A DNA stretch of 22,134 nucleotides from a virus, in IMG/VR virus record IMGVR_UViG_3300025112_000214, positions 1 to 22,134 of that record. The stretch is one strand, 5' to 3'. A program made the position numbers and the translations under genes. This document shows, piece by piece, positions 2,574 through 11,950 of the stretch (its first letter is position 1; the number at the start of each line of letters is the position of its first letter). Below the pieces are notes generated by a model. That model worked only from the letters and a program-made list of their open reading frames with translations. It was not told where the DNA came from and ran no database searches.

Positions 2574-3212
2574 ATGGAAGAACGTAGAGTGAAAACAGAA
2601 CAACAAATAGCTCATGAAGATAAGATCTTTAGAAACACGAATACCTGGGATGTGATTACTTTTGTTAATAATACTCCCTCGGGTATTGATTGGAAAAGAA
2701 TAGTTTTGATAAAAGATACAGAGGTGGGTAAAATAAGGGCAGGTTCTGCGCATCTTCACGACCCAGAAAAATACGCTCCTCCTTCATGGCTTACAACCAG
2801 TAAAGCAGCAGAAATTTGGAAACTATACACCAGAAAAAATAAAGAATTTAAAGACAAGAAACAAGCAAGTCTTGTTTTATGGAAACATTTTAAACCAAAA
2901 GCAAAAAAACCTAAATACGAAGATTTTTCTAAGCACTATCTAATAAGAGAAGGTCTTTGGAAAGACGAGGAAACTGGAGCAACCGCTCCAGTTTTGGACA
3001 GGGTTGAACAACCAAAACGAAAACGCACAACCCTATCAGAAACAGCTAAGATAGGTGCGACAGGTAAACAACCCAAGTCAGAAAAAAATATTGCAAGACT
3101 TAAACTCTACAGGAGGAGTAAGGTTAGTACAATTTTAGCTAAGAACCCAGAAATAAAATTAGGAGATATCAAGTATGATATACGAAACAAATACGCACAA
3201 ATTGTGGGCTAA
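2574..3212 (+). CDS. Basic protein of unknown function with C-terminal DIKYD module
   Basis: 212-residue, Lys-rich protein, not recognised. The first half (about 1-125) has mixed composition with WKRIVLIKDTEVGKIRAGS and a SKAAEIWKLYTRKNKEF helix; about 130-180 is a basic, low-complexity linker (KRKRTTLSETAKIGATGKQPK). The last 35 residues, with V-x-x-I-L-A followed by GDIKYDIRNKYAQIV, resemble the C-termini of the proteins at 8642 and 11515 (VxxALATRLVxAxDxKYDV). Positive charge suggests nucleic-acid contact, but no catalytic motif is visible. It appears to be a single-gene unit: terminator and promoter before, hairpin at 3245-3265 after. The start ATG has only a weak AGAG site. It is a real gene by length and context; function unknown. 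Confidence 0.8.
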   Translation: MEERRVKTEQQIAHEDKIFRNTNTWDVITFVNNTPSGIDWKRIVLIKDTEVGKIRAGSAHLHDPEKYAPPSWLTTSKAAEIWKLYTRKNKEFKDKKQASLVLWKHFKPKAKKPKYEDFSKHYLIREGLWKDEETGATAPVLDRVEQPKRKRTTLSETAKIGATGKQPKSEKNIARLKLYRRSKVSTILAKNPEIKLGDIKYDIRNKYAQIVG

Positions 3213-3244
3213 ATGCAGCCCCTTAGAGCGTCTTTTTTATAAAA

Positions 3245-3265
3245 CTAGGGTTAGGTATAACCTAG
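3245..3265 (+). other. Hairpin downstream of the 2574 gene
   Basis: CTAG-GTTA (3245-3248 and 3250-3253, G3249 bulged) pairs with TAACCTAG (3258-3265) around a GGTA loop, giving 8 bp. It is preceded, not followed, by a T run (TTTTTT near 3234-3239), so it is poor as a + strand terminator. It could be an mRNA end structure or an operator for the oxygenase gene 25 bp downstream. Confidence 0.35.
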
Positions 3266-3289
3266 CTAAAAGAATTTAATGGAGCGTAA

Positions 3290-3991
3290 ATGCAAGCCCC
3301 TCCATACTTAGTCAAAAACTTTCTACTTACTATTAAAGCTGAGTGGATGCTTGATAAGACTACACTTGAATTAACAAGAGACGCATTACCAAGTTTAAAG
3401 AAATTCCAAGAAAGTGATGGGCAAGAAAATGTGAAAAACGTGTTACAAGAATATGTCACCGACCATGGGCATGATATTTATTCTGTGCCCTTGTTTACTC
3501 AAGAGTTTTGTGACACTATGTTAGATGAAATAGAAAACATGAAACAGCACTTTAACTTTAGTCCTAACACAGAGGAAGATAAACTTAGACAAATACCAGA
3601 AATAGTTTTACATGAAAAATCTCCCGAGTTATTTAATTCAATGCTTGGGGTGATTTTTAATGTTATGAACCCTATCTTTATGTCAATTTGGCAACGGTAC
3701 TCTCATGCTGCCGCAACTATACAGATTGCGAATTATAATATTAGGGATAAAAAGCAAGGTGCGTGGCACCACGACCAAACCGCAGATATAAGCATGGTTG
3801 TTCCTTTGAACACAGGTACTTATAAAGGCGGAGGAACTGAGTTTCATGGTCGGACTACGGTAAAACCTTTACCCAATGGTCATGCTTTATTTTTCCCTAG
3901 TTTTACGCACATGCATCGTGGACTACCAGTCAAAGATAAAGGAGATAGATATTTATTAGTGTTTTGGTTATACGGAGGTGGAGATGAATAA
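3290..3991 (+). CDS. 2OG-Fe(II) oxygenase (prolyl 4-hydroxylase-like)
   Basis: 233-residue non-haem iron dioxygenase that should couple oxidation of a substrate to decarboxylation of 2-oxoglutarate. The iron triad is visible: H160 and D162 in AWHHDQTAD, and H209 in FTHMHRG; R220 in GDRYLLVFW would bind the 2-oxoglutarate carboxylate. The strand motif YKGGGTEFHG, then PLPNGHALFFPS, is typical of the P4H/PHD-like superfamily. The first 90 residues are poorly conserved and may be substrate-specific. Start ATG has GGAG 9 bases upstream. It overlaps the 54-aa gene, which overlaps a cytidylyltransferase, so the three are probably made together. Such enzymes are common in marine phages; targets proposed for the family include protein side chains and nucleobases. 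The substrate here cannot be told. Confidence 0.9.
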   Translation: MQAPPYLVKNFLLTIKAEWMLDKTTLELTRDALPSLKKFQESDGQENVKNVLQEYVTDHGHDIYSVPLFTQEFCDTMLDEIENMKQHFNFSPNTEEDKLRQIPEIVLHEKSPELFNSMLGVIFNVMNPIFMSIWQRYSHAAATIQIANYNIRDKKQGAWHHDQTADISMVVPLNTGTYKGGGTEFHGRTTVKPLPNGHALFFPSFTHMHRGLPVKDKGDRYLLVFWLYGGGDE

Positions 3992-4148
3992 ACCAATAAG
4001 AACTTACGACGGATATTTAGAAATACTGGACAATGTACGAATGATTATTCGTATGCATGCTCCAGAAGAATCGGTTGTAGAACTCAATAAACAAATAAAC
4101 AAATTTGAAGATGAACTCTCAGAAATGTTAGCAGGTCGTGAAGGATAA
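3984..4148 (+). CDS. Small protein of unknown function linking oxygenase and cytidylyltransferase
   Basis: 54 residues: starts MNKPIRTYDGYLEILDNV and continues with a probable helix-helix layout ending ELNKQINKFEDELSEMLAG, which has heptad-like hydrophobic spacing suggestive of a short coiled coil. Not recognised. The ribosome site GGAGGTGG just upstream of the ATG is one of the strongest in the window. It overlaps the oxygenase by 8 bases and the next gene by 11, so translational coupling of all three is likely. The coupled position suggests a partner or regulator of one of the two enzymes, which is inference only. Confidence 0.7.
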   Translation: MNKPIRTYDGYLEILDNVRMIIRMHAPEESVVELNKQINKFEDELSEMLAGREG

Positions 4149-4569
4149 AAAAATAGGTATTACTTTTGGTTCTTTTGATTTGTTTCATGCTGGTCATGTA
4201 TTTATGTTAGAGGAAGCAAAAACTGTTTGTGACTATTTAATTGTAGGTCTTCAGAGTGATCCCACAATAGATAGACCAAAAACTAAAAATAAACCTGTGC
4301 AAAATATTATAGAAAGACAAATCCAGCTTAGAGGTTGTAGGTATGTAGACGAAATTATCCTATACAGCACCGAAGAAGAATTGTTAGACATGCTTAACAC
4401 CATAAAGTGGGACATTAGAATCATTGGTGAGGAATATAAGTCTAAACACTTTACTGGAAAAGAACTTTGTAGTACTGTTGCAGGCAGTATTCACTTTAAT
4501 AAAAGGAAACATGGGTTTTCCTCAACGAGCTTAAGAAAAAGAATTACAGAAGCTCAGTTTTTAACATAA
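4138..4569 (+). CDS. Cytidylyltransferase-like nucleotidyltransferase (TagD family)
   Basis: 143 residues with GTG start. It has the diagnostic nucleotidyltransferase motifs: GSFDLFHAGH (HxGH at 17-20, binds the nucleotide triphosphate), an R-x-x-x-L-R helix (ERQIQLRG, 59-66) and FSSTSLRKR (127-135, the ISSTxIR signature that closes the CTP site). Length and motif spacing match glycerol-3-phosphate cytidylyltransferase and related small enzymes that join CTP to a phosphorylated alcohol or sugar. GEEYK at 97-101 also fits. In a phage this could feed surface or DNA modification, or modify host envelope precursors; the acceptor is not knowable from sequence. It is coupled to the oxygenase through the 54-aa gene. 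The enzyme class is confident, the substrate is not. Confidence 0.88.
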   Translation: MKDKKIGITFGSFDLFHAGHVFMLEEAKTVCDYLIVGLQSDPTIDRPKTKNKPVQNIIERQIQLRGCRYVDEIILYSTEEELLDMLNTIKWDIRIIGEEYKSKHFTGKELCSTVAGSIHFNKRKHGFSSTSLRKRITEAQFLT

Positions 4570-4581
4570 ACTGCAATTGTG

Positions 4582-4611
4582 CTTTACTACAAGCTAGAAG
4601 TAAAGTAAAGT
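4582..4611 (+). promoter_or_regulatory. Hairpin and possible promoter before the 4644 gene
   Basis: CTTTACT (4582-4588) pairs perfectly with AGTAAAG (4599-4605) across a 10-base loop, 12 bases after the cytidylyltransferase stop. The same bases give a promoter-like TTTACT (4583-4588), 17-bp spacer, TAAAGT (4606-4611). The 15-mer at 4596-4610 is the exact reverse complement of the CTTTACTTTACTTCT core found at 8570-8584. The site may therefore be a promoter, a terminator, or both. Confidence 0.4.
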
Positions 4612-4643
4612 TTATATTTATATAAATAAATAAGGAGAAATTT

Positions 4644-5006
4644 ATGCAACCCTATGCCGATGTCCCTATGAGAAAAGTAATATGGAAAGATATTGAATTG
4701 ATTAACGAAGTGGCTGAAAAACGCAACTACAATCGACAAATAGATCTTTCAAAACTTAAAAAAGAGGTTAAAAAGCAGATAAAATCAATGGGTTACGAAA
4801 ATTTTAATAAAGTGTTTTTTGCTGCAAAAGAAATAATGCTACATGAACACAAAGGTGGTAAAAAATGTGCACCACATATGAGAATTGGAATTTGGTTTCC
4901 TAACAATATTCAAGTGTACGTGGACTGTGATTTACAACTTTGGAACTCTTTTGAAAGAGTTTTGTATCCTTTTAAGGAAAAACCTAAGCTAACCCTTGTA
5001 AAATGA
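4644..5006 (+). CDS. Conserved-looking phage protein of unknown function
   Basis: 120 residues, start ATG with AAGGAG 7 bases upstream. Not recognised. Three parts can be seen: a charged helical first half (IELINEVAEKRNYNRQIDLSKLKKEVKKQIKS broken by short turns), a KVFFAAKEIMLHEHKGGKKCAPHM stretch containing His and Cys residues that could bind metal, and a beta-rich end (RIGIWFPNNIQVYVDCDLQLW). No signal peptide or membrane segment. It shares a 4-base overlap (ATGA) with the next gene, so these two and probably the small terminase form one operon started from the promoter-like site at 4583. Confidence 0.75.
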   Translation: MQPYADVPMRKVIWKDIELINEVAEKRNYNRQIDLSKLKKEVKKQIKSMGYENFNKVFFAAKEIMLHEHKGGKKCAPHMRIGIWFPNNIQVYVDCDLQLWNSFERVLYPFKEKPKLTLVK

Positions 5007-5245
5007 AACAATCCTCTTTTAAAGAGGGACTACCTATACCAGAAATAGTTCCTCGTAATAATAAATATAACCTACATAAAATGCAAATTGGTCAATACTT
5101 TACTGTGGAAGACTGGGATTCTGAAGATGTTCAGCGTTTAAGGGTTGCGGTTTGTAACTACGCCAGAAGAAATGATAAAAAGTTTGTCACTCGTAAAATA
5201 GAAGAAGACGGTGATTGGAAGCTTCGTGTTTGGAGAGAGTTTTGA
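5003..5245 (+). CDS. Small basic protein, possible nucleic-acid binder
   Basis: 80 residues. The pattern LHKMQIGQYFTV followed by VQRLRVAVCNYARRNDKKFVTRKIEEDGDWKLRVWREF recurs, to my memory, in many short phage proteins of the 'K-M-x-V-G-x-x-F / A-x-x-Y-A-R-R-x-x-x-K-F-x-x-R' type, whose function is unassigned. A helix rich in Arg and Asn between two strands suggests a small DNA- or RNA-contacting fold. Start ATG overlaps the previous stop by 4 bases, and its own stop is overlapped by the TTG start of the small terminase. Gene is sure, function unknown. Confidence 0.75.
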   Translation: MKQSSFKEGLPIPEIVPRNNKYNLHKMQIGQYFTVEDWDSEDVQRLRVAVCNYARRNDKKFVTRKIEEDGDWKLRVWREF

Positions 5246-5706
5246 GTAAAAAATTAACCCCCAAACAAGAAAAGTTTGCACAAAATGTAGCGAAAGGTAT
5301 GAAGAAAAAAGACGCTGCAAAACAAGCTGGGTACAGTAAGAAAAATGCAGGGCGTGCTGGTACTATGCTCACTTCTAAATCGAACCCAGAAGTACAAGAC
5401 CGCATTCACGCTCTACAAACTAAAGCTGCCAGTAAGGCTGAACTCACGCTGGGTAACCACTTAGTTGACCTTAAAGATATTCGTGACGGTGCTATGCGTA
5501 ATGGTGCGTGGTCTGCTGCGGTGACTGCCGAAGTGGCACGTGGTAAAGCTGCAGGTTTGTATGTGAACCGTAGCGAACTGACCGTGAACCGTGTGGACAC
5601 CATGTCAAAAGATGAGGTGCTCGCGAGGATGAAAGAACTTTACTATGAATCAGGTGGTATTCTTCCTGAGGGTAAAGTTATAGAAGGTGAATACGAAGAA
5701 CAGTAG
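5242..5706 (+). CDS. terS: Terminase small subunit
   Basis: About 154 residues from a TTG start at 5242, chosen because GGAGAGAG lies 4-11 bases upstream and the codon overlaps the preceding stop; an upstream in-frame TTG at 5215 lacks such a site. The N-terminus KLTPKQEKFAQNVAKGMKKKDAAKQAGYSKKNA is the classic helix-turn-helix of Terminase_2-type small subunits, which recognise the packaging site on phage DNA. A central helical region (oligomerisation) and a C-terminal part ending in acidic EGEYEEQ, probably the large-subunit contact, follow. Oddly, the large terminase is more than 8 kb downstream instead of adjacent. A second role as a DNA-binding regulator cannot be excluded. Family assignment is strong. 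Confidence 0.85.
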   Translation: MSKKLTPKQEKFAQNVAKGMKKKDAAKQAGYSKKNAGRAGTMLTSKSNPEVQDRIHALQTKAASKAELTLGNHLVDLKDIRDGAMRNGAWSAAVTAEVARGKAAGLYVNRSELTVNRVDTMSKDEVLARMKELYYESGGILPEGKVIEGEYEEQ

Positions 5707-5730
5707 TTGCCTTTATTCTTAAACCCATAC

Positions 5731-5759
5731 TTTACTTTCCTTTACTTCTAACCTATGCT
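5731..5759 (+). promoter_or_regulatory. Putative promoter, TTTACT-N17-TATGCT
   Basis: TTTACT (5731-5736), 17-bp spacer containing a second TTTACTT, and TATGCT (5754-5759). The flanking text ACTTTACTTT...CCTTTACTT closely matches the promoters at 8566 and 11438. It lies 33 bp before the 5792 gene in an 85-bp gap. Confidence 0.6.
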
Positions 5760-5791
5760 AACTATATATTATATTAATAGGAGAAAATACT

Positions 5792-5932
5792 ATGGAAGAA
5801 TGTAAAGAGTGTAACGGGAAGGGAGTAGTAGGAGTTGAAAGTGGACTCAAAGGTCCAGCCCCTGAATTTATAATCGCCTTTAAATGTAAAAAATGCACTG
5901 GGGTTGATGATTTTATCGGGAGAAAGGGGTGA
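5792..5932 (+). CDS. 46-aa zinc-ribbon-like protein
   Basis: Short protein with two CxxC knuckles: CKEC at residues 4-7, followed by NGKG as in the DnaJ zinc-finger CxxCxGxG repeat, and CKKC at 32-35. The four cysteines could hold one zinc ion. The ATG has AGGAG at a good distance (GGAG then 9 bases) and follows the promoter at 5731. Six bases separate it from the next gene. Short phage proteins of this kind are common but have no known role; a nucleic-acid or protein contact is plausible. Confidence 0.65.
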   Translation: MEECKECNGKGVVGVESGLKGPAPEFIIAFKCKKCTGVDDFIGRKG

Positions 5933-5938
5933 AGTATT

Positions 5939-6202
5939 ATGGAAGAATTTGAATACAATAGCATGAACAGCTATGAAGAAAACTTTGAAACTTGGCATTA
6001 TCTAAACACAAAAGAAAAAGAGCTGTTTAGTGAGGAACCCTACTCAAAAGAAAAAGGGAAAAAAGTTTTCGATGGTTTGTATAAGAACAAATTAGCACAC
6101 TCTATAAAGATAAACACAAACGGGGTATTAGAGGATGTGTTAGTGCTAGAAAAAGATGCTGTTGAGTCTGACTTACGAGCAGTAAATTTTACCAAAAAAT
6201 GA
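5939..6202 (+). CDS. Hypothetical protein, acidic
   Basis: 87 residues, rich in Glu, Asn and Tyr in the first 35 (MEEFEYNSMNSYEENFETW), with a Lys-rich middle and a strand-like end (NGVLEDVLVLEKDAVESDLRAV). No recognised domain. The ribosome site AAGGGGTG is upstream of the ATG; it lies 6 bases after the zinc-ribbon gene and probably shares its promoter at 5731. It ends where the GC-richer non-coding stretch 6203-6383 begins. Confidence 0.65.
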   Translation: MEEFEYNSMNSYEENFETWHYLNTKEKELFSEEPYSKEKGKKVFDGLYKNKLAHSIKINTNGVLEDVLVLEKDAVESDLRAVNFTKK

Positions 6203-6215
6203 AGAGTTTAATAAA

Positions 6216-6379
6216 ACAACCCGATCCGAAGCTGTGCGCCTCAGGCAGCGTAATCAAGGTGAGATGTGTGTGACGCCATAAGGGTTGTGCCAGTTTGGTA
6301 TATGAGTAGGTATAATTAATGCTCATGTCTAGAAAGCTATTACTGGCTATTCATAGAACGGCTAATCTCGCCACTGAGG
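6216..6379 (+). ncRNA. Candidate structured RNA / long 5' leader of the 6384 gene
   Basis: This 181-base gene-free gap is visibly richer in G+C than its flanks and all frames are broken by stops. By eye it offers: a 7-bp helix ACAACCC (6216-6222) with GGGTTGT (6282-6288); directly abutting it a 6-bp helix GCCAGT (6289-6294) with ACTGGC (6342-6347); nested in that, ATGAG (6302-6306) with CTCAT (6322-6326); inside the first, GCTG/CAGC (6231/6246). CCTCAG (6239-6244) can also pair with CTGAGG (6374-6379), which contains the ribosome site of the next gene. It does not resemble a tRNA or a riboswitch I know. It could be a free RNA or a cis-regulator. Confidence 0.4.
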
Positions 6380-6383
6380 TAAC

Positions 6384-6788
6384 ATGAGAACCTGTGTCTG
6401 TTGTAGAAAAGAATTAAAACAAACCAACCATTCCTTCTATTGTTCTGACGAGTGTAAAACAGGAACTCTTTACAAAACCAACAAAAACCCTCTGTCCTTC
6501 TATGGAACTGCTGATTACGATAGAGATATTCATTATCGACATGGAACTGTTTGTACTATGGGGATGTCCCCTGATATCTTAGCAAAAGCAGAAGAAAATG
6601 AAGAAGAACACGGCATAGTGGAAGATACAGACGCACTACAAAAAATTATATTTGAAGAGATGAACTCCCCAAAATATAGAAAAGCCACTGCTAAATACTG
6701 GTTGAGAAAACGTCGTAGATTAAAGAATACTAAGAATGGTCCTAGTGATAAACCCTTATCCCGTTTAATATATTACTTTAATAAATAA
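6384..6788 (+). CDS. Hypothetical protein with N-terminal zinc-binding motif
   Basis: 134 residues. The N-terminus CVCCRKELKQTNHSFYCSDEC has Cys at 4, 6, 7, 20 and 24, a pattern seen in small zinc knuckles that begin phage and restriction-related proteins (CxxC...CSxxC, as in FCS/MYM- or HNH-associated ribbons). No HNH nuclease residues follow. The C-terminus is very basic (KYWLRKRRRLKNTKNGPSD), suited to nucleic-acid contact. The ATG follows GAGG with 4 bases between, and that site could be masked by pairing with 6239-6244 in the leader. It is 12 bases before the next gene. Function unknown. Confidence 0.72.
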   Translation: MRTCVCCRKELKQTNHSFYCSDECKTGTLYKTNKNPLSFYGTADYDRDIHYRHGTVCTMGMSPDILAKAEENEEEHGIVEDTDALQKIIFEEMNSPKYRKATAKYWLRKRRRLKNTKNGPSDKPLSRLIYYFNK

Positions 6789-6800
6789 AGGAGAATAAAT

Positions 6801-7394
6801 ATGCCGAATCATTGTTACAATCAAGTGACGATACAGTCAACCAAAGAAGACATAGAAAAGATTATGGAACACCTACGAGGTGGGGAAGCTATGTTTGATT
6901 TCAATAACCTAGTACCGATGCCCGAGGAACTGAAAGACCTACACCATATAACTGCAGAAGGAAAAGAATGGTTTTACTCAGTTACGAAGTATAAAGCGTC
7001 TCTCAATGGAGAAAAAGAACCTTACCTAAGTTTCCCTGATTTAGATTGGATAAAAGAAAATCATATAGATGGTTTTACGCTCCGTCGCATAAAAAACGAA
7101 TACGGAACTGCTAGTTGGTACGATTGGTGTTGTGAGAATTGGGGTACTAAGTGGAATGCTTACGATGTTGAATATTTCACAGGTCCAATCCCTAAGGCTA
7201 CAGCTATTAAAGAGGGTAGGCAGATAGTCTATAGACTTTCTACCGCATGGGCAGAACCCAGACCTATTATTAATGCACTTATGAGATATTTATCTCAACC
7301 TGGATTTGACCAAGACCTAGAAATGAGATGGCGTTTTGAGGACGAGTTAGAAAACTTCAATGGGGAGATAAGAAACGGCGATGATGAAGTTTAA
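6801..7394 (+). CDS. Api92-like (DUF1281-type) phage protein
   Basis: 197 residues. The opening MPNHCYNQVTIQSTKEDIEKIMEHL and FDFNNLVPMPEEL, then WYDWCCENWGTKWNAYDVE and RLSTAWAEPRPIINALM, form the well-known signature of the Api92-like family (ferredoxin-like alpha/beta fold) found in phages and in plasmid or conjugative elements. Length is normal. The family's biological role is unknown; the W-CCENWGTKW segment is the most conserved part. Start ATG has GGAG 9 bases upstream. It overlaps the next small gene by 14 bases. Assignment is confident from the motif set; no enzymatic claim is made. Confidence 0.85.
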   Translation: MPNHCYNQVTIQSTKEDIEKIMEHLRGGEAMFDFNNLVPMPEELKDLHHITAEGKEWFYSVTKYKASLNGEKEPYLSFPDLDWIKENHIDGFTLRRIKNEYGTASWYDWCCENWGTKWNAYDVEYFTGPIPKATAIKEGRQIVYRLSTAWAEPRPIINALMRYLSQPGFDQDLEMRWRFEDELENFNGEIRNGDDEV

Positions 7395-7557
7395 AGAGGT
7401 TAGGTTTGAAAGTGTATCAGAAAGAACTAAGTTTTTAGATGCCTTCTTCCCCGACCGAGAAAAACTTGAACAGAACTCCTACCAAGTACAAGAACAAGCG
7501 GTTGTGGTGGTTGATGGTAAAAAAGTTCTATTTTTGACGGGTGTTGATGAATCTTAA
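7381..7557 (+). CDS. 58-aa hypothetical protein
   Basis: Small protein, MMKFKEVRFESVSERTKF then a FFPDREKLEQNSYQVQEQAVVVV stretch in which a helix is followed by two strands (AVVVVDGKKVLFL). It starts inside the end of the Api92-like gene (14-base overlap) and a GGGGAG lies about 10 bases upstream; the second ATG at 7384 is an alternative. Unrecognised. The overlap and the clean frame support a real gene. Confidence 0.6.
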   Translation: MMKFKEVRFESVSERTKFLDAFFPDREKLEQNSYQVQEQAVVVVDGKKVLFLTGVDES

Positions 7558-7633
7558 ATTAACAGGATGGTTTGGATGGTTTGTGTGGTTGTTGGGTGTA
7601 TATATTGTATTAAAACTATTAGGAATATGCTAG
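7547..7633 (+). CDS. 28-aa single-span membrane peptide
   Basis: A tiny ORF overlapping the previous stop by 11 bases: an N-terminal MNLKLTGW, then a Trp-rich hydrophobic run (WFGWFVWLLGVYIVLKLLGI) long enough to cross a membrane. The ribosome site is weak (GGGTGT), so expression would rely on coupling to the upstream gene. It could be a phage membrane peptide. The hydrophobic pattern is striking, but chance cannot be excluded at this length. Confidence 0.42.
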   Translation: MNLKLTGWFGWFVWLLGVYIVLKLLGIC

Positions 7634-7692
7634 GGAAGGAAAACCATGTTATATAAAGTTATAGGTATGTTAAATTATAAAGGAGAAACAAA

Positions 7693-7998
7693 ATGAAAGG
7701 TTTTGACAGAATAGATAAACTCTATCTCTCTGCAGAAGGTGAGCAATTATCGAGTAAAATCGATCATGCTTATTATAGACAGACAGATACAGTATCTTTG
7801 CCAATATCGCCTATCCTAAGAGGAGAAGACTTCTGGGACGGCATTTACGAAGCTATAGAAAATTTGGACTTTATTTACTGGACAGGGGAGAATAACGGAA
7901 CTACCTACAAACTCAAAAGGAACGAGGATAATACTCTTAGTCTACAACAGAAAGGTCATATAGTGCAAATGCAAACAAAAGGTAAGGAGGAAAGATGA
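7693..7998 (+). CDS. Hypothetical protein
   Basis: 101 residues, start ATG with AAGGAG 9 bases upstream. Not recognised. It has an N-terminal MKGFDRIDKLYLSAEGEQLSS, a central LRGEDFWDGIYEAIENLDFIYW helix and a beta-rich end (TYKLKRNEDNTLSLQQKGHIV). No signal peptide or metal motif. It is preceded by a 59-bp AT-rich gap after the membrane peptide and shares a 4-base ATGA overlap with the next membrane gene, so the two are probably translated together. Confidence 0.68.
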   Translation: MKGFDRIDKLYLSAEGEQLSSKIDHAYYRQTDTVSLPISPILRGEDFWDGIYEAIENLDFIYWTGENNGTTYKLKRNEDNTLSLQQKGHIVQMQTKGKEER

Positions 7999-8126
7999 TG
8001 GAACTATTAATATGGATGCTGTATTTGCCTTGGAACCTGCTTAAATGGGTAGTGATACTTGGGGCTTGGTCCGTGGTTATTTATTGTATTTTCACAGGCG
8101 TGAAGAATTATTTGGAGACTAGATAA
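7995..8126 (+). CDS. 43-aa membrane protein
   Basis: MMELLIWMLYLPWNLLKW leads into VVILGAWSVVIYCIFTGV, giving one or two closely spaced hydrophobic segments, with a charged tail KNYLETR. The ribosome site AGGAGG lies 4 bases upstream of the first ATG, among the best in the window. It overlaps the previous gene as ATGA and the next as TAATG, so it is locked in a three-gene coupled run. Small size and one membrane span fit holin-like or host-membrane-acting phage peptides, but no lysis gene is nearby, so function is open. Confidence 0.6.
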   Translation: MMELLIWMLYLPWNLLKWVVILGAWSVVIYCIFTGVKNYLETR

Positions 8127-8557
8127 TGGGTACACGAAGCAATATTGCAATAGAGCAAGAAGACGGAAGCGTGAAAGTTGCTTACTGTCACTATGACGGA
8201 TACGTAGAGCATAACGGTATAATCCTGCTGAACCACTATTGGGGCGAGAAAAAAGCTCAAGAATTGGTGGACAATGGCTACGCCAGTTCGCTCAGTTCCA
8301 CACTAGAGGAAATTAATGACGGTAGAGTACATAAGGATAAACCCGACACTTATAGGTCTTTAGGCAACTATATGTCGTGGCACGTAGACCCTGTGTACAT
8401 AGAGTACATCTATTTGTGGAGAGATGATGAGTGGCAGGTGTCTAGGTCTATGGTTTATGATACACCTGATGGCTTTACAAAAAGTCAATGTTACCACACT
8501 GCCTTTAAACCATTACACGAAGAGTTTTGGTTAGAAAAGAAGACCGTGAATAGTTAG
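8126..8557 (+). CDS. Conserved phage protein of the MGTRSxI type
   Basis: 143 residues. The opening MGTRSNIAIEQEDGSVKVAYCHYDGYVEHNG, followed by ILLNHYWGEKKAQELVDNG, is a recurrent signature of an unassigned phage and cyanophage family (short beta strands with Y-C-H-x-D-G-Y). The conserved Cys/His/Asp cluster could be a metal or catalytic site, but this is not established. The C-terminal half repeats Tyr/Trp-rich strands (YIEYIYLWRDDEWQV). GGAG is 10 bases before the ATG, which overlaps the preceding stop. It ends the coupled run 7693-8557. Confidence 0.78.
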   Translation: MGTRSNIAIEQEDGSVKVAYCHYDGYVEHNGIILLNHYWGEKKAQELVDNGYASSLSSTLEEINDGRVHKDKPDTYRSLGNYMSWHVDPVYIEYIYLWRDDEWQVSRSMVYDTPDGFTKSQCYHTAFKPLHEEFWLEKKTVNS

Positions 8558-8565
8558 ATCATTTA

Positions 8566-8593
8566 TTTACTTTACTTTACTTCTAACTATAAT
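8566..8593 (+). promoter_or_regulatory. Putative promoter, TTTACT-N16-TATAAT
   Basis: TTTACT (8566-8571), 16-bp spacer, perfect TATAAT (8588-8593). The best -10 of the promoter set. Tandem TTTACT repeats in the spacer match the sites at 5731 and 11438. It is 49 bp before the 8642 gene. Confidence 0.7.
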
Positions 8594-8641
8594 AGAGTGT
8601 ACGGTTAATAATTAAGTTAACCAAAGAAAGGAGAAACGGCA

Positions 8642-8941
8642 ATGCCAAAATCTACTACTGCCAAAAAAGCTAGTCCTACGGCGACTGCACCTAAGTCTAA
8701 ATCAGCTAAACGACCTTTAGCAGATATAGCAGCCAGCACTACTAAAAAGGTAAACGCTGGTGGTCTTGACCTCAAAGCTGTCCTTAAAAATAATAGGGAT
8801 AAAGTGGCGAGGGCTCCAAGCAACGCTGAGAGGCACTTAACCCTAGATGGTAAAACCGTTGAGGAAGCACTAGCTACTCGACTGGTTGATGCTCGTGATA
8901 TCAAGTATGATGTCAGTAAGGGGTTTATGCTGATTGCTTAA
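8642..8941 (+). CDS. Small basic protein with DIKYD C-terminal module (paralogue of 11515 gene)
   Basis: 99 residues. The first 40 are low-complexity Lys/Ala/Thr/Pro (a basic tail like that of histone-like proteins); after AGGLDL the last 55 form a compact module KVARAPSNAERHLTLDGKTV then EEALATRLVDARDIKYDV and SKGF. Over 45 residues about 30 are identical to the protein at 11515-11751, and the end resembles that of the 2574 protein. The module has no known name to me. Strong ribosome site (AAGGAG). It is a one-gene cassette: promoter at 8566-8593, hairpin at 8949-8973 after the stop. The strong promoter and charged tail suggest an abundant DNA- or RNA-associated protein; this is inference. 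Confidence 0.8.
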   Translation: MPKSTTAKKASPTATAPKSKSAKRPLADIAASTTKKVNAGGLDLKAVLKNNRDKVARAPSNAERHLTLDGKTVEEALATRLVDARDIKYDVSKGFMLIA

Positions 8942-8948
8942 CTATTAT

Positions 8949-8978
8949 GCCCAGTGGCTTTTGGTCGCTGGGCTATTT
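8949..8978 (+). terminator. Strong hairpin after the 8642 gene
   Basis: GCCCAGTGGC (8949-8958) pairs with GTCGCTGGGC (8964-8973), 10 bp with two G-T pairs, around a TTTTG loop; a short TATTT follows. It starts 8 bases after the stop. Likely a terminator, though the T-run is weak. It also argues against an upstream start at 8947 for the next gene. Confidence 0.6.
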
Positions 8979-8985
8979 AGGAGAA

Positions 8986-9216
8986 ATGATGAATAAATAT
9001 TTTGACACACTAGACATGACGCTTTATAATTATGCTCATAAACCACCACGCAGTATTAGAGCAGCAATGCGTAAGCAACTCAACACACAACATGACGTGG
9101 TCGGTGGTTGGCGTTATATTGTGGACCTTTGGAAGAAAGACAGGGAAGACGGTTATAGGTGGGGAGGTAATACTCCTAAGCCTGTGGTCCATCCTGACGT
9201 ATTTAAGAGGATATGA
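8986..9216 (+). CDS. Hypothetical protein
   Basis: 76 residues from the ATG at 8986, chosen because AGGAGAA precedes it directly and the earlier in-frame ATG (8947) lies within a hairpin; the next ATG (8989) is equally possible. The sequence MMNKYFDTLDMTLYNYAHKP, then a basic helix SIRAAMRKQLNTQHDV and WRYIVDLWKKDREDGYRWGGN, has many Tyr/Trp/Arg. Not recognised. It overlaps the phosphatase start by 4 bases, so the two are cotranscribed and may work together. Confidence 0.65.
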   Translation: MMNKYFDTLDMTLYNYAHKPPRSIRAAMRKQLNTQHDVVGGWRYIVDLWKKDREDGYRWGGNTPKPVVHPDVFKRI

Positions 9217-9650
9217 TGGTTAAACGATTACCGCCTAACTACATCAACCAAGCCGTAATAGTAGATATAGACGGAACTCTTGCACACGGCACAGGGAGAG
9301 ACCCCTACGACTACACACGAGTACACGAAGACCTACCCGACGAACAAATAAAAGAGTTAACTAAAATGCTCCATGAAGAGTTTTTTATAATCATAGTAAG
9401 CGGTAGGGAGGACTATTCTCAAGAGGATACTGAACAGTGGCTCGAGGACCACGATATACCTTACGACGCAATACACATGAGACGCACGAAAGACTTTAGA
9501 CCCGATACCGAAGTTAAACAAGAAATATACCAAGAATTAATAGAACCCCACTACAATGTGTGGCTGGTTCTTGATGACCGTAATAGCGTAGTGAATATGT
9601 GGCGGGATATTGGGCTAAAATGCCTGCAAGTTCAAGCAGGGGATTATTAA
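9213..9650 (+). CDS. HAD phosphatase related to T4 polynucleotide kinase 3'-phosphatase domain
   Basis: 145 residues. The HAD motif I is VDIDGTLA (nucleophile Asp and acid/base Asp), motif II the Ser of VSGRE, and the later DDRNSVVNMWRDIGLKCLQV matches the polynucleotide kinase phosphatase domain (LDDRNxVVxMWR). The intervening GRDPYDYTRVHEDLP and the MRRTKDFRPDTEVK segment fit the same subfamily, which removes 3'-phosphates from nucleic-acid ends. There is no P-loop kinase domain, so only the phosphatase half of the T4 enzyme is present. The likely role is repair of 3'-phosphate DNA or RNA ends, possibly against host nicking defences. ATG overlaps the previous stop. Strong family assignment. 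Confidence 0.88.
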   Translation: MMVKRLPPNYINQAVIVDIDGTLAHGTGRDPYDYTRVHEDLPDEQIKELTKMLHEEFFIIIVSGREDYSQEDTEQWLEDHDIPYDAIHMRRTKDFRPDTEVKQEIYQELIEPHYNVWLVLDDRNSVVNMWRDIGLKCLQVQAGDY

Positions 9651-9661
9651 GAATTGTCCAC

Positions 9662-9694
9662 TGATCAATAGCTTCATAGCTATACTTATATAGT
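9662..9694 (+). repeat. 33-bp direct repeat, copy 1 (leader of 9717 gene)
   Basis: Identical over 33 bases to 10175-10207. Begins TGATCAATAGCTTC and ends CTTATATAGT. Contains a 6-bp hairpin, ATAGCT and AGCTAT around TCAT. It lies 11 bases after the phosphatase stop and 22 before the next ATG. Similar AT-rich spacers with AAGGA follow both copies. Confidence 0.9.
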
Positions 9695-9716
9695 TAATTA
9701 AATAAGGAAAAATGTT

Positions 9717-10184
9717 ATGAATGAACAAGTAAAAAATGGTTGGTACTTACGCTTTAAAGAAGAGGCAGAGTACAACATACGGGAAGTTATTTCTCCAGGT
9801 GCCGAGCAAGACCGAGTGGTGAATATAATTAATGATCTACTCACTGATTGTCACGGTGATTTGTGGTGGCACTTTGATGAGGATCACGGTTATAATGAAG
9901 ACCTTGATGAGTCTTTACCTGAATTTAATACTGTGTATGATTCTTCGTGGCTCAATGACGTTCCCGATAGTGGTTATAATATCATTCGGTTAGGTTATGG
10001 TGATGTGTACGCTGGTGAATCTTTTAATCAGAGAGATATCTATATAGCGTTATCTATGAATGGTTGCTCATTAGCTAGTGCCCTCACTGAATATTATAAG
10101 TTTACCATTCCCGTTATAGATCGTTACGCTCTGTGGGGTGTTAAAACTTTAGTGAACGTTATGACTAAGCCTAGTGATCAATAG
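9717..10184 (+). CDS. Hypothetical protein behind 33-bp repeat
   Basis: 155 residues, unrecognised. Acidic and Trp/Tyr-rich: a first helix WYLRFKEEAEYNIREV, a CHGDLWWHFDEDHGYNEDLDE stretch rich in His and Asp (possible metal site, not a known motif), then SGYNIIRLGYGDVYAG and a hydrophobic C-terminal helix. No signal peptide. The ribosome site is AAGGA. Codons here end in T more often than in the head genes, a mild compositional shift shared with the next gene. Its last codons (SDQ and stop) lie inside the second copy of the 33-bp repeat, so that repeat also works as coding sequence. Confidence 0.7.
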   Translation: MNEQVKNGWYLRFKEEAEYNIREVISPGAEQDRVVNIINDLLTDCHGDLWWHFDEDHGYNEDLDESLPEFNTVYDSSWLNDVPDSGYNIIRLGYGDVYAGESFNQRDIYIALSMNGCSLASALTEYYKFTIPVIDRYALWGVKTLVNVMTKPSDQ

Positions 10185-10207
10185 CTTCATAGCTATACTT
10201 ATATAGT
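10175..10207 (+). repeat. 33-bp direct repeat, copy 2 (leader of 10236 gene)
   Basis: Identical to 9662-9694, 513 bp downstream. It covers the stop codon of the 9717 gene (10182-10184) and ends 28 bases before the 10236 ATG. Same ATAGCT/AGCTAT hairpin. A shared promoter, processing site or regulatory leader is likely; a recombination scar is possible. Confidence 0.9.
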
Positions 10208-10235
10208 AAGTTTAATAAATATAAGGAATAAAATT

Positions 10236-10826
10236 ATGAATATCTTAAAAGACTATGCCGATCAACTTAAACCTTTGAACAAGGCTATCAATGATTATAA
10301 CGAGTTCTGGCATGCTCAATACTTTGATTATAACCCTACTGCTTTCCGTATTTCATCTTATGGTGGCGGTAGTTATTTTAATGAGTGGGAGAGTGGTCAA
10401 GCTGAAAAGCAAGATGGCTATATACCTATGCTCAGTGTCCAGACTCGTGAAACCGATGGCTATACCCTTATTGAACTCAATAATAAAAACGCTCAAAAGC
10501 TCATAGATGAACAGCCTAACGTATATGAATGGCTTGAATACATACTGCGTCGTGAAAATCAAGACGGCTGGGAGGGGTTTGGCTGGGGCGATGATAAAAA
10601 ATACTGTCACGGTATAGCTTCTGAAACCCTCACTGGTGTTTATGCTGGTAGGCATATGGGACAACAAGAACCGCCTAGTAAACTAATCCTGTGTTTCAAT
10701 ACGGGTGGTGGGGAAGCGTACGATCAACAATTACTTAGGGTCATAAAGGTTAAAGAACCATATGATGACTTTAGTTATGTCGGAGATTTTATCTCGGACT
10801 ACTGTAGTCCTACTCTTACTATATAG
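10236..10826 (+). CDS. Hypothetical protein behind 33-bp repeat
   Basis: 196 residues, unrecognised. Opening helix LKDYADQLKPLNKAINDYNEFW, then Gly/Tyr/Trp-rich beta regions (SYGGGSYFNEW, ENQDGWEGFGWGDD) and a C-terminal alpha/beta part with LILCFNTGGGEAYDQQLLRVIKV. It shows no detectable similarity to the preceding protein even though both share the same leader, so the two are probably co-regulated instead of duplicated. Ribosome site AAGGA. T-ending codons are frequent, as in the previous gene. No membrane segment. Confidence 0.7.
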   Translation: MNILKDYADQLKPLNKAINDYNEFWHAQYFDYNPTAFRISSYGGGSYFNEWESGQAEKQDGYIPMLSVQTRETDGYTLIELNNKNAQKLIDEQPNVYEWLEYILRRENQDGWEGFGWGDDKKYCHGIASETLTGVYAGRHMGQQEPPSKLILCFNTGGGEAYDQQLLRVIKVKEPYDDFSYVGDFISDYCSPTLTI

Positions 10827-10882
10827 CTGTTACTATATTAGCATCCCCAGAAAATACTTTTATAAATCACAAAATATCTCAT

Positions 10883-10915
10883 TCTAGCCAATAAGCCAAT
10901 AGGGTATTGGCTAGA
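10883..10915. repeat. 11-bp inverted repeat
   Basis: TCTAGCCAATA (10883-10893) is perfectly complementary to TATTGGCTAGA (10905-10915); the 11-base loop itself contains another GCCAAT. No T-run follows, so it is not a typical terminator. It begins 57 bases after the 10236 gene. Confidence 0.8.
10885..10902 (+). repeat. 18-bp repeat, copy 1
   Basis: TAGCCAATAAGCCAATAG; 17 of 18 bases identical to 11180-11197 (A in place of C at the tenth base). Each copy itself holds two GCCAATA units. Confidence 0.75.
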
Positions 10916-10930
10916 GTCCTCTTACTTACT

Positions 10931-10964
10931 CGCTTTATTAAGGTTATTGGCTAACCTATTAGCG
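10931..10964. repeat. Imperfect cruciform
   Basis: AGGTTA (10941-10946) pairs with TAACCT (10952-10957) around TTGGC, and outer arms CGCT (10931-10934) and AGCG (10961-10964) can close it through an internal loop. The loop again carries ATTGGCTA, as in the preceding inverted repeat. Confidence 0.6.
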
Positions 10965-11085
10965 ACCTATTGACTTAAATTAGGCAATATGGTCTTTGGA
11001 CTGTGGTTCGTGGTACTAGGTTGGTAATAATAACCACACGACATAAAGCATGTGAAAGAGTTTATACAAGAGGTTTATAGAAATT

Positions 11086-11277
11086 GTGAGCCTATATATA
11101 GAACTAACTTTTGATCCGCACACGGACAAAGGTAAAAAAGTTATAGAGAATGGACCATGGTTCCCGTTTCTTAGTCATTTAGCCAATACGCCAATAGCCA
11201 TGATCTATTATACCGTGATCATGATCCGTGGACCGAAGTATCTTGCCATTGTGATCACGCTGCATGTGATCTGGTAA
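11086..11277 (+). CDS. Doubtful 63-aa ORF
   Basis: GTG start with GAGGT 11 bases upstream. The first 38 residues (MSLYIELTFDPHTDKGKKV...) look like normal protein, with charged and hydrophobic positions alternating; the rest is hydrophobic and is encoded by the repeat and GATC-rich DNA, as if a gene end had been replaced or extended by repeats. Could be a decayed gene or chance. The in-frame stop at 11053-11055 rules out a longer start. Confidence 0.22.
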   Translation: MSLYIELTFDPHTDKGKKVIENGPWFPFLSHLANTPIAMIYYTVIMIRGPKYLAIVITLHVIW

Positions 11278-11380
11278 TCGAAAAGCGTTGCGTGGGATGT
11301 TGCTTGGTAATCTTAGTTCCGTTTTTACGTGTAACATTGTGATCGCATCATGGACCAGTGACCGTGATCGCATTGTGATC
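11113..11380. repeat. Cluster of nine GATC sites, six as GTGATC
   Basis: GATC occurs at 11113, 11202, 11217, 11223, 11253, 11268, 11341, 11366 and 11377; six are GTGATC (starting 11215, 11251, 11266, 11339, 11364, 11375), all in the same orientation. CATTGTGATCGCA is repeated exactly at 11335-11347 and 11371-11383, and ACCGTGATC at 11212-11220 and 11361-11369. About one GATC would be expected by chance in this length. Iteron-like; binding protein unknown. Confidence 0.7.
11180..11197 (+). repeat. 18-bp repeat, copy 2
   Basis: Matches 10885-10902 at 17 of 18 bases. It lies at the left edge of the GTGATC-rich stretch, linking the hairpin part and the GATC part of this non-coding region. Confidence 0.75.
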
Positions 11381-11437
11381 GCACACGACGCACGGATTTT
11401 GACAGAAAAAGAACATACAGAATATTAAGATTAATAC

Positions 11438-11466
11438 TTTACTTTAACCTTTACTTAAGGCATAAT
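11438..11466 (+). promoter_or_regulatory. Putative promoter, TTTACT-N17-CATAAT
   Basis: TTTACT (11438-11443), 17-bp spacer with a second TTTACTT, CATAAT (11461-11466). Same layout as at 5731 and 8566. It is 48 bp before the 11515 gene. A perfect TTGACA also occurs at 11399-11404, but its -10 would be poor. Confidence 0.65.
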
Positions 11467-11514
11467 GAGCTTAGTTAAGTAATTAAGCTTAACATTAATA
11501 TATAGGAAAATACT

Positions 11515-11751
11515 ATGAATAATAAAACTACTACAAAAACTAAGAACGAAGTTAAAGTAAATTTAGGCGGACTAGACGGAAGCCTGATTTATACGGCAAC
11601 AGGTAAAGTAGCTAGAGCCCAGCATAACGCTGACCGCCACCAAGCTTTAAACGGCAAGACGGTTAAGGAAGCAATAGCGACCAGGCTAGTAAACGCCCAA
11701 GACGTTAAGTATGACGTAGCGAAGGGATTTATTACCTTAGAAAATAGCTAA
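11515..11751 (+). CDS. Small basic protein with DIKYD-type module (paralogue of 8642 gene)
   Basis: 78 residues: a short Lys/Thr-rich N-terminus, GGLDGSLIYTATG, then KVARAQHNADRHQALNGKTV, KEAIATRLVNAQDVKYDV and AKGF. About 30 of 45 residues are identical to the end of the 8642 protein, whose N-terminal tail is about 20 residues longer. No known family comes to mind. AGGA precedes the ATG. It stands alone between the promoter at 11438 and the 9-bp GNRA-loop hairpin at 11765, exactly the arrangement of its paralogue, and lies beside the GATC/hairpin region. A nucleic-acid-binding or regulatory role is plausible but unproven. Confidence 0.8.
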   Translation: MNNKTTTKTKNEVKVNLGGLDGSLIYTATGKVARAQHNADRHQALNGKTVKEAIATRLVNAQDVKYDVAKGFITLENS

Positions 11752-11764
11752 CCCCCAACGGAAA

Positions 11765-11786
11765 GGGTAGCGGGAAACCGCTACCC
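11765..11786 (+). terminator. 9-bp hairpin with GAAA tetraloop after the 11515 gene
   Basis: GGGTAGCGG (11765-11773) and CCGCTACCC (11778-11786) form a perfect stem closed by GAAA, a stable GNRA loop, 13 bases after the stop codon. What follows is A/C-rich with no U tract, so it is either a non-canonical terminator or an mRNA-stabilising 3' end. Confidence 0.55.
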
Positions 11787-11921: not shown

Positions 11922-11950
11922 TTTACTTTTTTCTGTTACTGAACTACACT
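11922..11950 (+). promoter_or_regulatory. Putative promoter of the head module, TTTACT-N17-TACACT
   Basis: TTTACT (11922-11927), 17-bp spacer, TACACT (11945-11950), followed by ATATAG. Lies 47 bp before the first gene of the head operon and matches the layout of the other five sites. Confidence 0.5.

Follow-up and report, generated by a model that had tools for sequence, protein, structure and literature searches.

The TTTACTT Box and a Family of Small Basic Phage Proteins

In this study, we analyzed a stretch of 22,134 nucleotides (positions 1 to 22,134 of the IMG/VR virus record IMGVR_UViG_3300025112_000214; hereafter the window), which comes from an uncultured marine phage with three dispersed small basic genes sharing one compact domain that is predicted to be DNA-binding-like. 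The genes lie at 2574–3212, 8642–8941 and 11515–11751, on the plus strand like the promoters, hairpins, late-operon box and 675–968 gene described below, and the last two are preceded by promoters with tandem copies of the heptamer TTTACTT. Across marine viral contigs this box is tied to the short members of the family and to the −35 position of their promoters. We tentatively propose, with a confidence somewhat short of even, that the module proteins are readers of TTTACTT and regulators of transcription.

The tie between box and family is tight. Of 56 short members, 54 had TTTACTT in the 120 nt upstream of the gene, compared with 57 of 990 other open frames (Fisher test, 2e-56, a value that overstates the evidence because the loci are related). 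In a comparison with shuffled sequences, 67 of 74 leaders contained the box, while the shuffled mean was 9.4, and 11 of 13 clusters formed at 60% module identity keep it. Leaders of short members usually hold two to four copies, spaced 5–6 or 10–12 bp, and the first copy stands 15–17 bp before a TATAAT-like −10 hexamer in 41 of the 67 scored leaders, that is, in the place of the −35 element. Several promoters are near the sigma-70 consensus.

Only four tandem TTTACTT clusters exist in the window, all intergenic, and two of them precede 8642 and 11515. In the promoter of 8642 (8566–8593), copies start at 8566, 8571 and 8576 before a −10 hexamer TATAAT at 8588–8593; the first occupies the −35 position and the others fall in the spacer. 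The promoter of 11515 (11438–11466) has copies at 11438 and 11450, the second within the spacer, and CATAAT at 11461–11466. Before 2574 there is a weaker promoter-like site at 2519–2547 (TTTACA, 17 bp, TAAGAT), without an exact TTTACTT and with 9 of 12 bases agreeing with the consensus, as many as chance also yields. An earlier note on this DNA had described the three genes as separately driven; this holds for 8642 and 11515, which have sigma-70-like promoters, and for 2574 the weaker site is all that was found.

The box is also used elsewhere. The late (packaging/structural) operon is preceded by a single TTTACTT, at 11922–11928 and 75 nt ahead of its first gene; nine of nine homologous leaders contain this box, and single boxes also precede some primase, helicase and long-member genes. 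Three genomes carry TTTACTT as an inverted repeat, TTTACTTTACTTGTAAAG (L112:19663-19686, L116:17551-17575, L127:279-303), which lies directly upstream of a conserved gene with function unassigned (MNIFKL...MHCDKHVSKMILESAQML). The link of box and family through the absence of the box elsewhere, the structured mRNA leader described below and the late-operon box are points beyond the earlier note.

The terminase of this record is 55–62% identical to those of the Pelagibacter phages HTVC027P and HTVC023P, phage 023Pt_psg01 and DSL-LC04. Intergenic enrichment of TTTACTT was 4–30-fold in family-bearing phages and 0.5–2-fold in three of four terminase relatives without the family, the latter counted over stretches of 25–40 kb in phages chosen partly for the motif. 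Upstream regions of these relatives showed TTGACA-type elements, as judged by eye, and searches of HTVC023P and HTVC027P found neither a family member nor a sigma-like protein. We read this as a lineage-specific change in which, to judge from the sequences, TTTACTT took over the −35 role from TTGACA.

Membership and Spread of the Family

The coordinates and reading frames given earlier for the three genes were correct on checking, and the three proteins are indeed all basic, with isoelectric points (pI) of 9.95, 10.17 and 9.75. The 212-aa product of 2574 is of a long type, with an N-terminal domain of its own (about 150 residues) and the family module at its C-terminus; the 99-aa product of 8642, of a middle type, has an N-terminal tail rich in Lys, Ala, Pro, Ser and Thr (type sequence MPKSTTAKKASPxATAPKSKSAKRP, pI above 10) followed by the module (8741–8938); and the 78-aa product of 11515, of a short type, is the module almost alone. 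The claimed kinship of 8642 and 11515 was borne out by 37 identical residues of 61 (61%, E = 7e-25).

The position of 2574 needed more evidence, as its head-on comparison with 11515 is weak (29% over 42 residues, E = 0.01 in a single comparison). Used as the sole query, 11515 retrieved orthologues of 2574 from contigs L034, L028, L037, L032, L029 and L030 at E values of 5.5e-8 to 2.8e-6, and the whole module aligns in them (ATGKxxKSEKNAARHxLYKKxKVKTIL...IKLADIKYDIKSGYAEIVG). We count 2574 as a member because 11515 alone finds its orthologues and the module aligns fully there; its place in the family, which had hung on a significant score, is thus upheld at E = 5.5e-8. A family of only two was ruled out by this search together with the profile scan. 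Alignment places the module at residues 163–212 of the 2574 protein (3060–3209), as does a profile E value of 6.8e-20 on the frame of its identical orthologue in L015, a frame that was itself among the training rows of the profile.

Scanning marine viral contigs with the profile revealed the module in 188 open frames from about 100 viral loci, a count that includes overlapping pieces of single contigs, and twelve larger contigs hold two to four copies each. On these sequence grounds the family is real and wider than had been supposed. In a tree of 70 modules (63 columns, many inner forks open), the main long type split from the short types with support of 100/100, and that duplication is therefore old. 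Two contigs, L047 and L049, carry an 8642-type module fused to a different N-terminal part, from which it follows that the module joined different partners more than once.

Library searches agreed with the earlier description of an unnamed, dispersed family of three paralogues. The family proteins of the window had no match in Pfam at E values up to 10, and no MotA model was among the Pfam matches of 31 modules. Pfam, PHROGs and NCBIfam gave nothing beyond a scatter of weak matches (best 0.0025 and 0.0049), inconsistent between members, and PDB sequences contained no relative. Searches of GenBank isolate phages by tblastn with three family queries, and of plasmids with one, were empty, and one pattern scan of GTDB genomes gave six pattern matches with no relative among them. 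By sequence comparison, the family is absent from every library tested.

Predicted Fold of the Module

AlphaFold2 modelled the 78-residue 11515 protein with a predicted local distance difference test score of 90 and the order strand-helix-strand-helix-helix-strand. A model of the 2574 protein built from 2574-type sequences only has the identical order in its module; some 2574-type modules were also rows in the first alignment, which limits the independence of the two models. The module is confidently modelled as a small winged-helix-like fold, which is predicted only. Its weak structural neighbours aligned mostly over regions that we take to be winged helices, such as those of FAM91A1, RPC39 of RNA polymerase III, PriA and BlcR. 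Six residues (K31, N38, R41, D63, Y66 and D67) vary little or not at all, and the best-conserved stretch is DIKYD, the putative second helix of a helix-turn-helix; such conservation is as expected if the modelled helix meets a constant target. With regard to the earlier suggestion of a DNA/RNA-binding or decoy system, DNA binding gains indirect support from the winged-helix-like models and the tight promoter-box link, and nothing supports a decoy.

Proposed Mechanism

In the mechanism that we propose, the three paralogues would be transcription factors with one winged-helix-like DNA-binding module and differing N-terminal parts, and they would recognize TTTACTT, the element that would replace the TTGACA −35 element in this lineage. 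At their own promoters, the extra boxes in the −35/−10 spacer would be placed as expected for self-limiting control. Single boxes at the late operon and some replication genes would let the factors time transcription by the host RNA polymerase.

Several observations weigh against this proposal. Exact TTTACTT is absent from 32 of 37 genes of the 2574 type. The relative DSL-LC04 lacks the family and reached a 7-fold TTTACTT ratio, on five sites; the phages without the family were few (n = 4) and partly motif-selected, and the Fisher value overstates the evidence, as already stated. The conserved DIKYD helix bears two invariant aspartates, which is unusual for a DNA-reading face. Foldseek against solved structures (PDB) found no significant match for the module, which does not make the fold new, and VIA Z was at most 6.7 among the structural neighbours. 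Moreover, the box cannot be assigned to the module or to the sigma-like protein described next, because both share the same presence pattern.

Directly after the DNA polymerase gene, at 675–968, lies a gene for a 97-aa helix-turn-helix protein resembling sigma-70 region 4. Sigma region 4 reads −35 elements. A rival explanation, which we consider somewhat unlikely, is that TTTACTT is read by another factor, chiefly this protein with the host polymerase, and that the module proteins are mere clients of this strong promoter with a different task, for example in taking over or inhibiting a host process. The 675–968 protein matches Sigma70_r4 (E = 6e-5) and was found in five of five module-bearing genomes queried, while all four whole relative records lack it. 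The presence of the box before genes unrelated to the family also fits this explanation. However, the 22.9 bits of the protein are just below the Pfam cut-off of 24.1, it has no region 2, and surplus copies of the box gather at family promoters while the late promoter has one; a plain −35 reader needs no surplus. A search for a T7-type RNA polymerase gave no match, and its control search was likewise empty.

The two kinds of protein may also act together, by analogy with AsiA and MotA in T4. A wider scenario, which we regard as rather unlikely, is a new phage takeover in which the sigma-region-4-like protein and two to four winged-helix paralogues shift host RNA polymerase from TTGACA to TTTACTT. 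Such a system would span a large group of uncultured marine phages, with paralogues that would be stage-specific or would compete for boxes, and it would parallel T4 sigma appropriation with unrelated proteins.

It is improbable that the family consists of histone-H1-like or nucleoid-type proteins, strongly expressed and coating phage or host DNA with low specificity by means of a winged-helix-like core and a Lys/Ala/Pro-rich tail. The tail of the 8642 type, with its pI above 10, and the several promoters close to the sigma-70 consensus are in line with such a role, but the tail of the 11515 type is short, the few strictly conserved module positions include acidic ones, and the promoter-box link would be incidental.

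Leader and Downstream Hairpins

A 22-nt hairpin with a conserved AATTA-like loop and a covarying stem lies between promoter and start codon, at 8602–8623 in the 8642 transcript and at 11473–11494 in the 11515 transcript. Over 16 different leaders, 96% of cells pair, a proportion inflated because these leaders were picked by eye for showing the hairpin; seven of eight pairs changed on both sides, and no shuffle reached the observed covariation. The frequent U-G pairs argue for an RNA structure and against a DNA palindrome. The 16 leaders were used to build a covariance model, which matched the two sites named above and nowhere else in the window, and Rfam at gathering scores held no match for the hairpin. 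Outside the training set, the model matched leaders of DUF932 genes in two genomes (L122:18002-18023, L119:7944-7965), so the hairpin appears to be a shared leader of stand-alone genes, not a family-specific element, and its candidacy as a module-specific autoregulatory site is weakened. That the module is an RNA-binding domain controlling its own mRNA through this hairpin, as the two-sided changes, the U-G pairs and the restriction of matches in the window to two module-gene leaders might suggest, is very improbable given the DUF932 leaders, the general look of the hairpin and the lack of a clear match at this place in one large module clade (L084, L088, L104, L106 and kin).

A pseudoknot was rejected as a general leader feature, since the mean z score over leaders was 0.6 and mainly one clade has it. 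In L047, L048, L049, L050, L056 and L057 (convergent short-member pair), the leaders are H-type-pseudoknot-like, with z up to 4.2, and the AAGGGT in the loop of the hairpin could base-pair with an ACCCTT immediately upstream of the ribosome-binding site.

The three genes had also been described as each having a hairpin behind. This was confirmed for 8642 (8949–8973, z = −4.1) and 11515 (11765–11786, z = −4.3) and failed for 2574 (z = −0.3). Termination at the two confirmed hairpins is putative, because neither has a clear U-tract. A strong terminator-like hairpin (2486–2521, z = −5.1) separates a DUF932 gene from 2574.

Other Features of the Window

The 22-kb record comprises the end of a DNA polymerase gene, mostly unnamed middle genes and the start of the packaging/structural operon. 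Before 11515, a long non-coding region (10827–11514) is rich in short palindromes and in GATC (9 in 688 bases vs. 56 in all 22 kb), and L050 has a region resembling it. A 44-nt repeat containing ATAGCTTCATAGCTAT, with copies at 9662–9705 and 10175–10218 that are 93% identical, precedes two adjacent genes, possibly as a further pair of promoters or leaders. At 9002–9030, where the gene behind 8642 starts, TTGACA-17-TATAAT matches the sigma-70 consensus at 12 of 12 bases, as no other site in the first 20 kb does.

Comparison With Known Systems

If the proposed mechanism is true, it gives a first handle on gene-expression timing in these phages, names a protein family held by no library, and supplies a promoter motif by which metagenomic phage genomes could be read for their expression plans. 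Given how box and family are linked, two small proteins and two short pieces of DNA would be enough to put the question to a direct test.

One of the closest known systems is that of T4, in which the MotA box WWWTGCTTtA lies 12 bp from the −10 element and AsiA and MotA act together (PMC2988021). In both systems a sigma-70 −10 element is retained and the −35 region is taken up by a phage box, and the MotA box resembles TTTACTTTA of this phage. A small sigma-related second protein accompanies the family as AsiA accompanies MotA, and MotA consists of an N-terminal domain and a winged C-terminal DNA-binding domain, with the 2574 protein in the same length class. In contrast, the family has no sequence match to the Pfam MotA models and would be an analogue, not a homologue. 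The MotA box is single and 12 bp from the −10 element, whereas here the first box stands at 15–17 bp and copies are repeated; T4 has one MotA per phage, whereas several paralogues occur here; and the partner here is similar to sigma region 4 itself and not to AsiA.

With winged-helix domains, for example the N-terminal domain of the IclR-type repressor BlcR (3mq0), both models share the order helix-strand-helix-helix-strand, but no structural match reached significance, the module is smaller than usual, and in our reading of the DSSP order an N-terminal strand replaces the last wing strand. Among predicted viral structures, the best Foldseek match was Gp18 of the Alphaproteobacteria phage PhiJL001 (Q5DN87, function unknown; E = 6e-3, probability 1.00, 22% identity), which differs in being twice as long, with a root-mean-square deviation of 11 over the alignment and an E value above 0.001. 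Finally, HTVC023P and HTVC027P are the nearest terminase relatives (55–60% identical) and have a similar genome size, but at the places read their promoters are of the TTGACA type rather than the TTTACTT type.

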